Origin: Candidatus Nitrosopumilus sp.
GTDB taxonomy: Archaea; Thermoproteota; Nitrososphaeria; Nitrososphaerales; Nitrosopumilaceae
Direction: 5' to 3'
NCBI GenBank assembly: GCA_029861085.1
Contig: JAOUAE010000056.1
Location: 1 to 8,051 of the forward strand
DNA length: 8,051 nucleotides
This document shows, piece by piece, positions 4,213 to 8,051 of this stretch; positions within the stretch are counted from its first letter, which is position 1; each line of letters starts with the position of its first letter. The notes beneath the pieces were generated by a model, which worked only from the letters and a program-made list of their open reading frames with translations, was not told the DNA's origin and did not search any database. The position numbers were made by a program, and so were the translations under genes.

Positions 4213-4843
4213 CCGTAATTTTCCAGAATTCTGTACCCCTCAAGTCAGTGGACATCACGTGGAATCTCTCAAAAACTATGCTTTACCTGATTTTATTTTG
4301 TCACTTGTCGCAAAAGAATGCGATTCGGATCTTGCAAAAAAAGGAAGAACGGACAAGAAATTACACAGCATGAATGAGGAATCCCTTGAGTTACTGTATC
4401 GGATATTCGTAAAGTGTGACAAAAACAAGTCAGGACAGTATGCCAGGTACAGATTTTATGCGTATGTTGCCAGCATGTATTACAAATGCGAAGTCTTGAT
4501 CAACGAGATATTGCCAGGCAAGTCGGGAAATAATTACAAGGTTCCAGTAGCGATAAAAAGTAACGGAATGTACATTTCAGTTGCAGTAAACAAGGACATT
4601 GGAAAGCAAGTGAACAGAAGGGACACAGCGAAATTTTACCACATGGTTGATGACATCAAAAATGGAGAGCAGGGAACCATGTTGGCTGATGCAATTTATG
4701 CTTCCTCGGTAGGATTCAAAAGGGAATCACTAGTTGAGATTGAGAGGCTAAGTGTAGCAAGAAACAATGATGATCCTGAAAACAAACTGAATTTTAAAAC
4801 GGCATATTTTGAAAACGACATTTATTCTACAGCTCAGTGTTGA
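4205..4843 (+). CDS. Possible decayed Mrr-type restriction-endonuclease-fold protein
   Basis: A 212-residue cytoplasmic protein. The N-terminal half (about 18-105) is helical and charged. The C-terminal half reads like the core of Mrr-type restriction endonucleases (PD-(D/E)xK fold): strand YKVPVAIK (111-118), turn SNG, strand MYISVAVNK (122-130), helix RRDTAKFYHMVDDIK (138-152), strand DAIYASSVGF (162-171), then a helix (ESLVEIERLS). In active enzymes the two strands carry an Asp and then E-x-K. Here the matching positions look like Pro/Val and V-N-K, leaving only the Lys. If the alignment is right, it is a catalytically dead or altered nuclease fold that may only bind nucleic acid. The start GTG 4205 is fixed by an upstream stop and GAGGT. 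It is coupled to the zinc-finger gene at 4093. The family call is an eye alignment. Confidence 0.75.
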   Translation: MVNRNFPEFCTPQVSGHHVESLKNYALPDFILSLVAKECDSDLAKKGRTDKKLHSMNEESLELLYRIFVKCDKNKSGQYARYRFYAYVASMYYKCEVLINEILPGKSGNNYKVPVAIKSNGMYISVAVNKDIGKQVNRRDTAKFYHMVDDIKNGEQGTMLADAIYASSVGFKRESLVEIERLSVARNNDDPENKLNFKTAYFENDIYSTAQC

Positions 4844-4971
4844 AGGGATTAATTTTAAAGCAGATGGAAAGTAGATCATTGGCTCCTACATTGTATTCCT
4901 TTTCAACTCAAAAAGAATTTAAGACTATGGGAATTTCAAGTAAAAAGTTTCCATATTGATGTCCACTATTG

Positions 4972-4977
4972 TTATAA
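4972..4977 (+). promoter_or_regulatory. TATA box for the gene at 5000
   Basis: TTATAA is centred about 25 nt before ATG 5000, the position expected for a leaderless archaeal transcript. Confidence 0.45.
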
Positions 4978-4999
4978 CTGCCCAATCCTTAATTCTTAC

Positions 5000-5155
5000 A
5001 TGGTTCACAAAATAAAATATTTTGAAGCTGATAAATTGAAACCAGGTGTTTTCCTTCAAGATGCAGTAAATGACTTTCTAGCGGAAAAAGATGAAAAAAT
5101 CATAGCAGTTCACCCCGTTATGGAAAAAACATTGTTGGTTCACTACAAGGAATAA
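5000..5155 (+). CDS. 51-residue Cse60-like small protein
   Basis: The sequence begins MVHKIKYFEADKLKPGVFLQ, continues DAVNDFLAEKDEKIIAVHPV and ends in a short strand (TLLVHYKE). The order is strand KIKYFEA, helix with LQDAVNDFLAE, strand KIIAVHPV, turn, strand LLVHY. This matches the small Cse60-like fold (a K-I-K-V-F strand, an xxxINxFL helix, then two strands); the function of that family is not known. The same frame is open upstream to 4859 but has no ATG, GTG or TTG before 5000, so ATG 5000 is the start. A TTATAA box lies at the right distance. No operon partner is evident. Confidence 0.72.
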   Translation: MVHKIKYFEADKLKPGVFLQDAVNDFLAEKDEKIIAVHPVMEKTLLVHYKE

Positions 5156-5548
5156 TGACTCATCTTCCATTATTTTCATCTTGATAAAAAATTTAACGTC
5201 CAATGCTGTTTTAGTTTTGAATAACGTGAATAGTTCGTCAAAGATTGGTGGCCAAAGAAAAATATCTTTGTGCCAAGACCGCTAATCTAAAAGTTATCAT
5301 TAATGTTACGGACTTGTGGAATAAAAGAACAATTATGCAAATACCAAACATGTTTTTAGAAAATGGTTCTTTTCTTCGCATTTTGTGATTTTTAATAACA
5401 TAACATGAACTTGCGTTTTTCAATGTTTTTGGAATGCATTTTCAGATTATGATTTACCGAATTGGTGTAATTCCAGCAAATAATCCATGACTTGCAGATG
5501 CTGTTATTACGACAGATGTGGTTGCTTGTTTTTTTCATGATTTTACAT

Positions 5549-5560
5549 ATCTATATAGAT
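5549..5560. repeat. 12-bp palindrome ATCTATATAGAT
   Basis: This perfect palindrome lies about 120 bp upstream of the mini-gene cluster and is flanked by TCATGAT (5535-5541) and ATCATGA (5562-5568). It could be an operator, but short A/T palindromes are frequent by chance here. Confidence 0.3.
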
Positions 5561-5652
5561 CATCATGAGAAATGTATACTTGGGCATTAAAATTTATAGA
5601 AAAATAGTAAAAAATATAGAAATTCAGGCATGAAACTGTGAAATTCATCCGG

Positions 5653-5659
5653 TATATAT
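5653..5659 (+). promoter_or_regulatory. TATA box of the mini-gene cluster
   Basis: TATATAT is centred 27 nt before ATG 5683, the best-placed TATA box in the window. No Shine-Dalgarno precedes the ATG, so the first gene is probably read from a leaderless message and later genes by coupling. A second TATA-like element (TTTATAG, near 5593) lies further upstream. Confidence 0.5.
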
Positions 5660-5682
5660 CACAGAAAGGCACTAGCTAAAGC

Positions 5683-5799
5683 ATGTTAAAAGAACTAATT
5701 CAAAAAATGAAATTTGGTTCTTGCAAAGCCAAAACATCTGACGATGTTAATGCATTTGAGGAATCTGGAAAAAAGAAACCCGAGGATGTAGAAAAATAG
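5683..5799 (+). CDS. 38-residue hypothetical, first gene of the mini-gene cluster
   Basis: No family recognised. The sequence starts MLKELIQKMKFGSCKAKT, has one Cys (C14) and a charged Lys/Glu/Asp C-terminal half. An amphipathic N-terminal helix followed by a disordered tail is likely. It is supported mainly by position: a TATA box 27 nt before its ATG, and a TAG stop directly abutting the next gene's ATG with no intervening base. It could act as a leader peptide for the cluster. On sequence alone it is the weakest member. Confidence 0.55.
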   Translation: MLKELIQKMKFGSCKAKTSDDVNAFEESGKKKPEDVEK

Positions 5800-5904
5800 A
5801 TGGCATATCGCTGCAAGCATTGTAATTTTAAGTGGAATGCATGGGAAGACGATTTTCAAAAAGTACTTGTTCATGAAAAGACACATGTGGGAAAGGGTGA
5901 CTGA
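5800..5904 (+). CDS. 34-residue C2H2 zinc-finger protein
   Basis: The whole protein is one finger: C5-x2-C8, then FKWNAWEDDF, then H25-x3-H29. The linker between the second Cys and first His is 16 residues, longer than the classical 12, but hydrophobic and aromatic positions remain (F10, W12, W15, F19, L23). I recall single-finger proteins of this C2H2 style in ammonia-oxidising archaea. A nucleic-acid-binding role is plausible but unproven. It starts at the base after the previous stop; GAGG at 5782-5785 is a distant ribosome-binding site. Its stop shares one base with the next start (TGATG). Confidence 0.8.
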   Translation: MAYRCKHCNFKWNAWEDDFQKVLVHEKTHVGKGD

Positions 5905-6011
5905 TGCTCCTTTGCAATAAATGCTATAACGAACATCATGATCAGTGTATGGGAAAAGCTGGCATGTATGATTGTAGTTGCAAATGTTTTAAAAATAATT
6001 TAACAACATGA
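5904..6011 (+). CDS. 35-residue Cys-rich zinc-binding protein
   Basis: Six cysteines and two histidines in 35 residues: C4-x2-C7, H11-H12, C15, and the tight run DCSCKCF (C24, C26, C28). This could hold one or two zinc ions; the CxCxC run is also seen in metal-chelating peptides. GGTGA at 5896-5900 is a good ribosome-binding site three bases before the ATG. The start overlaps the previous stop by one base and the end overlaps the next start as ATGA, so translation is coupled on both sides. No known family is assigned. Confidence 0.78.
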   Translation: MLLCNKCYNEHHDQCMGKAGMYDCSCKCFKNNLTT

Positions 6012-6220
6012 TATCATCAGAAAACAGAAACATAATCACATCACATAGTAATGTGAACCGTCTACGAATATCCACTAAAGGTACCAACATTCCAGGGCAC
6101 CATCGGGAATGTGAAGAAGGGAATTGTTCTCGATTGATACCATGCCCATATGTCAGATGCCAAGAACACCGAACCGATATGGCAATAAAGGATTGGACTG
6201 TACAGCATGTTGAACCATGA
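6008..6220 (+). CDS. 70-residue protein with a Cys/His cluster
   Basis: The first 30 residues are polar and probably flexible. Residues 31-54 hold a dense ligand set: H31, H32, C35-x4-C40-x5-C46-x4-C51-x2-H54, with IPCPY in the middle. This can form one zinc site and resembles no family I can name. Both ends are ATGA overlaps (start in the previous stop, stop in the next start), strong evidence that this is the translated frame. The minus-strand frame over the same DNA lacks such signals. Its base composition looks richer in G+C than the flanking DNA. Confidence 0.72.
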   Translation: MISSENRNIITSHSNVNRLRISTKGTNIPGHHRECEEGNCSRLIPCPYVRCQEHRTDMAIKDWTVQHVEP

Positions 6221-6504
6221 AAAGCATGCCAACCCCGCCTGCAGAAGATTACGTAATGAAGAGCGATTCTAAAATAAAATTGTCTGAGGATGACTTTGTT
6301 TTGGTTGGAATGAACTACAACTATTACATGATTCCAAGGCTGGCATATCCCAAAGATGAACTCAAAAGTATAAAAGAGCAAATCCTCAAAAATCAGAAAA
6401 TGATTGAGGAATTAAAATCAGTCTGGGATGATGGAGTGCATGGCATGTTTGCAGACGATGTTGCAGGAATAATGGAGAAATATTTTGGCAAAAGAACCAA
6501 ATGA
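6217..6504 (+). CDS. 95-residue hypothetical with a coiled-coil helix
   Basis: No zinc ligands, unlike its neighbours. The N-terminus (MKSMPTPPAEDYVMKSD) is polar. An extended region with DDFVLVGMNYNYYMIPRLAY (25-44) suggests a short beta unit. A long charged helix (about 46-68, DELKSIKEQILKNQKMIEEL) has coiled-coil spacing, so dimerisation is likely. The C-terminus is acidic then basic. The family is not recognised. The start is coupled by ATGA to the previous gene, and its last 20 nt overlap the following zinc-ribbon gene. It may be a scaffold for the small zinc proteins, by position only. Confidence 0.78.
   Translation: MKSMPTPPAEDYVMKSDSKIKLSEDDFVLVGMNYNYYMIPRLAYPKDELKSIKEQILKNQKMIEELKSVWDDGVHGMFADDVAGIMEKYFGKRTK
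6474..6477 (+). promoter_or_regulatory. Ribosome-binding site fixing the TTG start at 6485
   Basis: GGAG lies seven bases before TTG 6485, inside the preceding gene. An in-frame TAA at 6470-6472 leaves TTG as the only standard start. Confidence 0.6.
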
Positions 6505-6646
6505 CAAATCACTTGCTACTGAAGGTGCAGAATTAAAGACAAGAGTAGTTTTACTCAATACCTGTACGAATTGTGGCAATAAATTCAAACCTGTCAACAG
6601 TATGATATTGGAAACGTTATGCGGTTTGTGTCTGAGAGAGAAATAA
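6485..6646 (+). CDS. 53-residue zinc-ribbon protein with a TTG start
   Basis: After a polar N-terminus (MAKEPNDKSLATEGAE) comes a four-Cys ribbon: C27-x2-C30-G, strand NKFKPVNSMILET, then C46-x2-C49-L. The TCTNCG and LCGLC knuckles are canonical for a zinc ribbon, as in rubredoxin-like or transcription-type ribbons. The start is TTG, backed by GGAG seven bases upstream and by an in-frame stop just before. It overlaps the previous gene by 20 nt, so it belongs to the same polycistron. It is the last member: downstream lie 27 nt of A/T-rich sequence and a poor frame at 6674. Confidence 0.8.
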   Translation: MAKEPNDKSLATEGAELKTRVVLLNTCTNCGNKFKPVNSMILETLCGLCLREK

Positions 6647-6745
6647 AATTCGATTGAGAAGATATTATTGGACATGATGATTTTCGATGCAAATCAAATC
6701 AAATCAACATGTAATGAGATGACATATGCACTTGAAGGTTGGAAT

Positions 6746-6842
6746 CTATTCTTCTTCACATTCTTTGCAACAAAATACTTGTAAAAAGATCAAAATGTTT
6801 CCACAGATTTTACATTTTTCATTTACAACATCAAAGGATCAT
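6746..6842 (-). pseudogene. Frameshifted mini zinc-knuckle gene
   Basis: The frame 6838-6746 encodes 30 residues ending in a clear zinc knuckle: KCKICGN, then ILIFLQVFCC, then KECEEE (C9-x2-C12 and C23/C24-x2-C27). It has no ATG, GTG or TTG before the knuckle and is closed upstream by TGA (6841-6839). However, an ATG (6842-6840) lies one base out of frame: ATG-A-TCC-TTT-GAT. Removing the extra A at 6839 would give an intact MSFDVVNEKCKICG... protein. Either the gene is broken by a one-base insertion, the read has an error, or an unusual start is used. It is the last of the minus-strand genes on this side. Confidence 0.5.
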
Positions 6843-6864: not shown

Positions 6865-7047
6865 TCAGGATGATTTGTCAATACAGTAACTACATGGGGA
6901 AAATCCTTCATTTTTTGCACAATCAAGCGTGTCTGGGACAAAGTAGGACCTGTCTTTCTTTTTTACGTGATAGATCTTGCATTCATGTTTTTTCATGGTC
7001 AGATGATGCACGATCATGCCTGATTTATCGCCCATATACCCCGGCAT
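6865..7047 (-). CDS. 60-residue Ada-like zinc-binding protein
   Basis: The C-terminal half resembles the small zinc-binding module of Ada-type proteins: KKHECKIYHVKKKDRSYF, then a short helix, then GFSPCSYC. Likely ligands are C23, C52, C55 and a histidine (H21 or H27); C43 is extra. In Ada the module is a metal-bound DNA-repair and regulatory domain; a free-standing copy could bind DNA or sense damage. ATG 7047 lies 4 nt after the methyltransferase stop, so the two are almost certainly co-transcribed. Later Met codons (residues 5, 11, 18) are alternative starts, and the first 17 residues look weakly conserved in character. The plus-strand frame across it is a shadow. Confidence 0.72.
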   Translation of the reverse strand: MPGYMGDKSGMIVHHLTMKKHECKIYHVKKKDRSYFVPDTLDCAKNEGFSPCSYCIDKSS

Positions 7048-7935: not shown

Positions 7936-8051
7936 CTATGCAATCACCGTTTTTTTAATTTCAGCAGTCTTGCACAGGCTTATCAAACAATCATGACAGA
8001 GATATTCACCGGACGTATTCTTGCAACCGCAATCACATGTACACGTATAAT
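7936..8051 (-). CDS. Partial Cys-rich zinc protein (5' end outside the window)
   Basis: The open frame enters from the right edge with no start codon and ends in TAG at 7938-7936. The visible 37 residues contain YTCTCDCGCK, GEYLCHDC and LISLCK: seven cysteines and one histidine, with C-x2-C spacing (CHDC) and a CxCxCxC run. This fits one or two zinc sites. The tail AEIKKTVIA is ordinary. It is co-directional with the methyltransferase, whose own TATA box lies between them, so it is probably a separate unit. Its full length and start cannot be judged here. Confidence 0.65.
   Translation of the reverse strand, partial: YTCTCDCGCKNTSGEYLCHDCLISLCKTAEIKKTVIA

Follow-up and report, generated by a model that had tools for sequence, protein, structure and literature searches.

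Six short overlapping frames on the plus strand of the window (the whole stretch of DNA that was analysed, 8,051 nucleotides from Candidatus Nitrosopumilus sp.) constitute a genuine operon, which belongs to a modular family of microproteins that we saw only within one archaeal family, the Nitrosopumilaceae. Tiny proteins of this kind, together with a spare copy of TFB, a general transcription factor, found among them in some relatives, point to an undescribed gene-control module. From sequence comparison, we give about an even chance to the reading that the six products, o1 to o6, are subunits, coupled in their translation, of an accessory module for transcription initiation. The original prediction of six mini-genes running head to tail was confirmed in the ORF list of the window, where all six plus-strand frames and all five junctions were found as claimed. 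The features of the operon are:

5648-5660, plus strand: promoter element TCCGGTATATATC, containing a TATA box at 5653-5659, with leaderless geometry.
5683-5799, plus strand: o1, 38 aa, head peptide with a cationic amphipathic N-terminus.
5800-5904, plus strand: o2, 34 aa, C2H2-like finger, C-X2-C-X16-H-X3-H.
5904-6011, plus strand: o3, 35 aa, Cys-rich (CxxC...C...CxCxC).
6008-6220, plus strand: o4, 70 aa, C4 plus His cluster.
6217-6504, plus strand: o5, 95 aa, no Cys, predicted beta-hairpin plus two helices.
6485-6646, plus strand: o6, 53 aa, TTG start, C4 zinc-ribbon-like, with a 20-nt overlap with o5.

From o1 to o6 the junctions read, as had been claimed, TAG directly followed by ATG, then TGATG, ATGA, ATGA and a 20-nt overlap, corresponding to gaps of 0, -1, -4, -4 and -20. 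When the interval 5640-6660 was subjected to 500 dinucleotide shuffles, the longest chain obtained (counting frames with 30 or more codons and gaps from -20 to +1) had four members and was reached by 5/500 shuffles, versus the six observed. Since shuffles reach at most four and the order is kept in the related loci L001, L002 and L003, the six-frame chain is beyond chance.

Relatives were taken from six genome-contig loci and from 250 genomes belonging to the same family as G003, the genome from which L003 comes; we take this family to be the Nitrosopumilaceae. L001, L002 and L003 carry all six frames in order, with 54-83% protein identity to the window over the aligned parts. Their gaps are 0, -1, +1, -4 and -20; thus four of the five junctions are the same as in the window, the exception being o3/o4, where a 1-nt gap replaces the window's ATGA. 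The window's junctions, all between -20 and 0, show the overlap or very short distance expected of translational coupling, and this spacing is conserved in relatives. The proposal of coordinated production is supported by these recurrent stop-start junctions and by the strict coupling of similar pairs, which was found in 13/14 overlapping gene pairs tested in Haloferax volcanii and E. coli, according to passages of PMC6728339. Closely spaced pairs of H. volcanii are, in the part of PMC10666635 consulted, enriched for subunits of complexes (45.2% vs 5.6%). 

The original prediction had staked itself on conservation of the frames and of their overlaps, and on Ka/Ks values away from 1. The frames and overlaps are conserved, and all six frames are under purifying selection in the comparisons with L001 and L003: NG86 dN/dS, calculated over few codons, is 0.15-0.29 across the six for the window versus L001 and the in-order L003 copy (for o1, 0.22 and 0.15, respectively). 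Against more distant or paralogous copies the values rise to as much as 0.90 (o1) and 0.88 (o2), some of them saturated. The relatives also differ in places. Cysteines are lost from o3 (two in L001, one in L002), and o6 of L003 ends early, its second Cys pair gone. A syntenic locus, L026, matches window positions 4300-6039 with 91% identity and breaks off 32 nt into o4; a search with the opposite-strand gene that lies beyond this breakpoint gave no identity. Its genome, G155, yielded no o4 or o5 match, in an assembly that may be incomplete. From the breakpoint within o4 and the lack of o4 and o5 matches in G155, it appears that o4 to o6 were either lost together or gained together. Copies also decay: G001 has a second o1-o2-o3 copy (L028, G001:C4) with a broken o3 that reads on into different sequence.

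Four of the six peptides, o2, o3, o4 and o6, carry a metal-site pattern, in agreement with the claim of four distinct Cys/His clusters; o1 has one Cys. Classical C2H2 zinc fingers have the spacing C-X2,4-C-X12-H-X3-5-H. The o2 peptide departs from it and has no Pfam C2H2 match; its putative ligands, C5, C8, H25 and H29, are all invariant in nine aligned rows. There are six Cys in o3; the o4 cluster consists of C35, C40, C46 and C51 plus His, accompanied by further invariant residues that are not ligands, and that of o6 of C27, C30, C46 and C49. Judged from these patterns, o2, o3, o4 and o6 probably bind zinc. Residues 1-12 of o1 have a hydrophobic moment with a mean z of 1.25 relative to shuffles (57 peptides). 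A natural fusion of o5 and o6 exists (P0075), and a multi-subunit assembly, as had been suggested for the six, would fit both this fusion and the overlaps.

Pfam and NCBIfam scans of o1 to o6 gave matches below cut-off only, a PHROGs scan only matches with E above 0.05, and an Rfam scan of the window nothing at gathering scores. Homologues in the protein database numbered 198 for o5 and 38 for o4. Searches of PDB sequences with profiles of o4, o5 and o2 returned no match or only matches with E above 0.1. A structural model of o5 (pLDDT 67.5) had no PDB fold match at E of 0.001 or below, and the o4 model (pLDDT 54.9) was too poor for a fold search.

The TATATAT sequence noted ahead of the first ATG is indeed present, at 5653-5659, its centre 27 nt upstream. 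With archaeal TATA-to-start spacing, this distance puts the expected transcript start at or beside the ATG. The surrounding element recurs among relatives. Its strict form, GYCRGTATATATC, from which the window copy deviates at the first base, has 40 matches in 30 of the 250 genomes searched, versus three for the reversed control. An o1-like frame begins 33-35 nt on in 35/40, a figure composed of 27/31 matches with loci of their own and 8/9 others (seven in further fetched loci, plus L078 and L029); it includes two frames recognised by eye only (L078, L118), two stumps of 13-14 aa (L097, L101) and two weak HMM matches (L085, L088). The five matches that lack such a frame are those of L091, L102, L114, L115 and L117. 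Conversely, a loose form of the element, with an ATG 33-35 nt from the element's start, precedes 37 of 57 o1 chains. A second promoter type was recognised in 11 chains, 10 of which have a second type of o1; two more second-type o1 genes have a type I or unclassified promoter. The CCGG-TATA promoter also precedes longer o1 peptides of 53 and 50 aa, in L096 (1535, plus strand) and L098 (1535 in minus-strand coordinates, promoter at 1501). No o2 was found behind either, so that each is a solo head peptide.

The constituents of the operon are distributed unevenly. Matches to o2 occur in 94/250 genomes, with up to seven per genome, to o4 in 17/250 and to o5 in 9/250. At class level, an o2 search at E 1e-5 gave matches in 77/400 genomes, all from the family set; 18 of the 20 listed non-matching genomes were new relative to the family search. 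When the frames behind each o1 of the fetched loci were followed downstream, 57 chains emerged, 56 of them distinct (one duplicate was dropped), and o2 follows o1 directly in 52/56, a share biased upward by the fetching of these loci largely through o2, o4, o5 or the promoter. The o1-o2 distance lies within -4 to +1 in 45/52 pairs, being 0 in 24, -4 in 10, +1 in nine and -1 in two; it takes other values in seven. The tails of the chains vary and draw on o3, a second o2, o4, o5, o6, e37 and the Cys-rich peptides zr1, zr2 and zr3; a fourth further Cys-rich peptide, zr4, is found beside the TFB genes described below.

Related small genes lie elsewhere in the window. A 60-aa Cys/His peptide, m60 (6865-7047, minus strand), is convergent to the operon and a recurrent neighbour outside it. 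The Cys-rich family e37, represented at 7936-8049 on the minus strand, recurs near o1 operons of relatives and inside some of them; in L079 (minus strand, strand coordinates 2041-2373) e37 extends into a longer tail, which we take to resemble the Lrp/AsnC ligand-binding domain. A short Cys-rich frame at 6746-6838, minus strand (CKICG...CCKEC), has no canonical start and is probably the decayed remnant of a microprotein gene; L003 has a 44-aa relative that starts with GTG (5460-5594, minus strand). Farther away, positions 333-1073 of the plus strand encode a protein with DUF4377 and a Kazal-type protease inhibitor domain, which is, to our knowledge, unusual in an archaeon.

In several relatives a TFB paralogue is located inside the same gene run. 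Searching the 250 genomes with that paralogue at E 1e-110 identified 17 genes in 16 genomes, here called TFBz. At least one microprotein of the set adjoins the TFBz gene in 17/17 cases versus 0/26 other-clade TFB loci (within 1.5 kb), the 26 being the higher-scoring others among the matches listed rather than a random draw. Directly upstream, zr4 stops some 10 nt short of TFBz in 15/17; of the two exceptions, one copy has an internal stop and the other is truncated by the contig end. On the same strand, o4, o5 or o6 is found downstream in 12/17 and o1, o2 or zr1 upstream in 8/17, o4 coming after the TFBz gene in several relatives. The fullest order, o1-o2-zr1-zr4-TFBz-o4-o5-o6, is seen in G153 and G156; G177 shows it too, enlarged by a further zr2 and o2. 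A single contig of G003 carries an o1-o6 operon and, about 5 kb on, o1-o2-zr1-zr4-TFBz followed by an o5 remnant and o6.

At the level of genomes, TFBz is present in 7/9 that have o5, versus 16/250 overall (hypergeometric 3e-8, kinship being ignored). By hand count, 7/20 o1 matches in 12 genomes lie less than 1 kb from a TFB, four of these being TFBz, and 13/20 do not; the count left out one weak o1 match (E 0.005), and some known copies escaped the o1 search. The binomial probability of 7/20 is 8e-8 at an assumed chance of 2%. TFBs of other clades are found within 1 kb of o1 at seven loci, convergently in L003, L028, L083, L086, L120 and L124 and divergently in L066. No TFB is present in the window, nor in the operons of L001, L002 and L003 themselves, and TFBz was not found in G001 or G002 at E of 1e-110 or below. 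The TFB gene of one relative (L004:316-1245) has two TFIIB core repeats (PF00382, E 3.7e-31, two stretches), and its putative N-terminal zinc ribbon scores 28.3 bits with PF08271, whose cut-off is 29. TFBz reaches 283 bits with the NCBI TFIIB model, against a cut-off of 384. Up to 11 TFB-like matches per genome are found in the family. The original prediction had listed a regulatory module among several possible roles, and the TFB linkage in relatives lends support to that one. L114 encodes a Cys-rich protein resembling zr4 (3e-6; strand coordinates 1913-2107 of the minus strand), some 400 nt away from a promoter match that lacks o1; relatives of zr4 may occur beyond the TFBz clade, and L084 and L105 point the same way.

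These findings can be assembled into a conditional scheme. A single transcript of leaderless type would issue from the dedicated CCGG-TATA promoter, whose sequence is observed and whose start site is predicted, and the observed stop-start overlaps would couple translation from o1 to o6 by reinitiation. The products would be small adaptor subunits: zinc-stabilised fingers or ribbons (o2, o3, o4, o6), with o5 as a helical partner and o1 as a cationic, amphipathic head. Their contacts may be with each other and with TFB, RNA polymerase or promoter DNA. As there is no TFB between o3 and o4 in the window, its operon would act in trans, on a TFB encoded elsewhere or on a general one. A more specific form of the scheme, which we offer tentatively and think rather improbable, is a dedicated system in which the divergent TFB is encoded and translated together with zinc microproteins, these serving to hold, activate or release it (anti- or co-TFB) and acting at private CCGG-TATA promoters. 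A promoter read only by TFBz was considered and rejected, since G018, G089, G096 and G176 have the promoter and no TFBz.

The conserved overlaps and the o5-o6 fusion would also be in keeping with a coupled heteromeric complex of zinc microproteins whose role lies outside transcription (protein quality control, RNA handling or signalling), next to which TFB would be found through shared regulation only. The 13/20 o1 matches (12 genomes) with no TFB within 1 kb, and the window with none, favour such a complex; the presence of these neighbours in the TFBz clade, 17/17 versus 0/26 of the others examined, argues against it, and we consider it possible, with considerable doubt. The free mixing of modules, with o2, o3, e37, zr1, zr2, o4 and o6 appearing in differing sets, suggests instead stand-alone zinc-finger microproteins that each regulate or adapt separately as in H. 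volcanii, the operon only setting their dosage. In that organism 12/16 single-deletion mutants had a phenotype in at least one condition, as stated in passages of PMC6562870. However, the fixed head o1, the fixed order of shared members, the tight overlaps and the o5-o6 fusion make this explanation unlikely here.

Two further proposals of the original prediction fared poorly. A zinc buffer or metallothionein-like store could draw on the 26 Cys and His summed over the four cluster peptides, but o1, with its single Cys, and o5 lack metal sites, the chains do not show Cys density throughout, and o2, o4 and o6 have the spacing of fingers or ribbons, o4 with its invariant non-ligand residues besides; we regard such a store as highly improbable. 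As to a virus-like module, or more broadly a mobile-element or conflict cassette such as a toxin-antitoxin-like set with a cationic o1, the patchy distribution of o5 and o4 leaves some mobility possible, and the cationic, amphipathic N-terminus of o1 and the abrupt L026 breakpoint would suit it. Against this, viral contigs searched with profiles of o5, o4 and o2 gave no confirmed relative (a weak test for a 34-aa query), and no integrase was present among the window proteins scanned with Pfam. PADLOC found no match for the seven proteins scanned, and a defence system was marked down on that result. The chance that the operon is a cassette of this type seems to us very slight.

A conserved operon tying zinc microproteins to a TFB and a near-private promoter makes a testable case of how a second initiation factor could be wired in an archaeon. 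In marine ammonia oxidisers, selection is also seen to act on genes as short as 34-38 codons, a size that gene callers readily omit.

Taken separately, zinc microproteins in archaea and genomes with several TFBs are already known, as described in parts of PMC6562870 and PMC12448741. The one-domain zinc finger micro-proteins of H. volcanii, the majority of which, not all, bind zinc (passages of PMC6562870 and PMC11241148), resemble the peptides described here in being archaeal, about 70 aa or less and endowed with Cys clusters, and many of their deletions have conditional phenotypes. The sizes of o2 (34 aa), o3 (35), o4 (70) and o6 (53) fall within this range. The H. volcanii proteins are defined, in the same passages, by two C(P)XCG motifs, whereas here o6 alone has one CxxCG (CTNCG), its second pair being CGLC followed by Leu. 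They further differ from the present genes, which are arranged as operons of overlapping frames, begun by a head peptide and, in relatives, joined by a TFB; the main text of PMC11241148 has none of the words operon, overlap, translational coupling and co-transcri*. Like o2, AFV1p06 is a single small archaeal C2H2-type finger, and it binds DNA; unlike o2, it is viral and has Glu as its fourth zinc ligand, according to passages of PMC3541406. The o2 profile gave two weak matches among the PDB sequences listed, neither of them AFV1p06. Ammonia-oxidising archaea have several TFBs per genome, N. maritimus having eight, of which the highest-expressed one changes in biofilms (passages of PMC12448741, whose main text lacks the words zinc and small protein). 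No description of a union of zinc microproteins with TFB was found in the open-licence literature, among the matches listed, or in the passages of PMC4158269, PMC9258230 and PMC7785015 retrieved by word search.

Should a dedicated TFB-partner system be real, archaea would have a parallel, in logic, to the pairing of sigma factors and zinc anti-sigma proteins, and TFB-less operons such as that of the window would act in trans. In bacterial sigma factor and zinc anti-sigma operons, the gene of an alternative initiation factor stands together with that of a small zinc protein, which it often overlaps; the proteins are unrelated to those described here, and the analogy is one of layout only. By its description the operon can also be likened to TFS4, a zinc ribbon which is a TFIIS paralogue and not the product of a microprotein operon. 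In Sulfolobus, TFS4 is a small factor that destabilises the TBP-TFB-polymerase complex and inhibits RNA polymerase, according to passages of PMC5715097.
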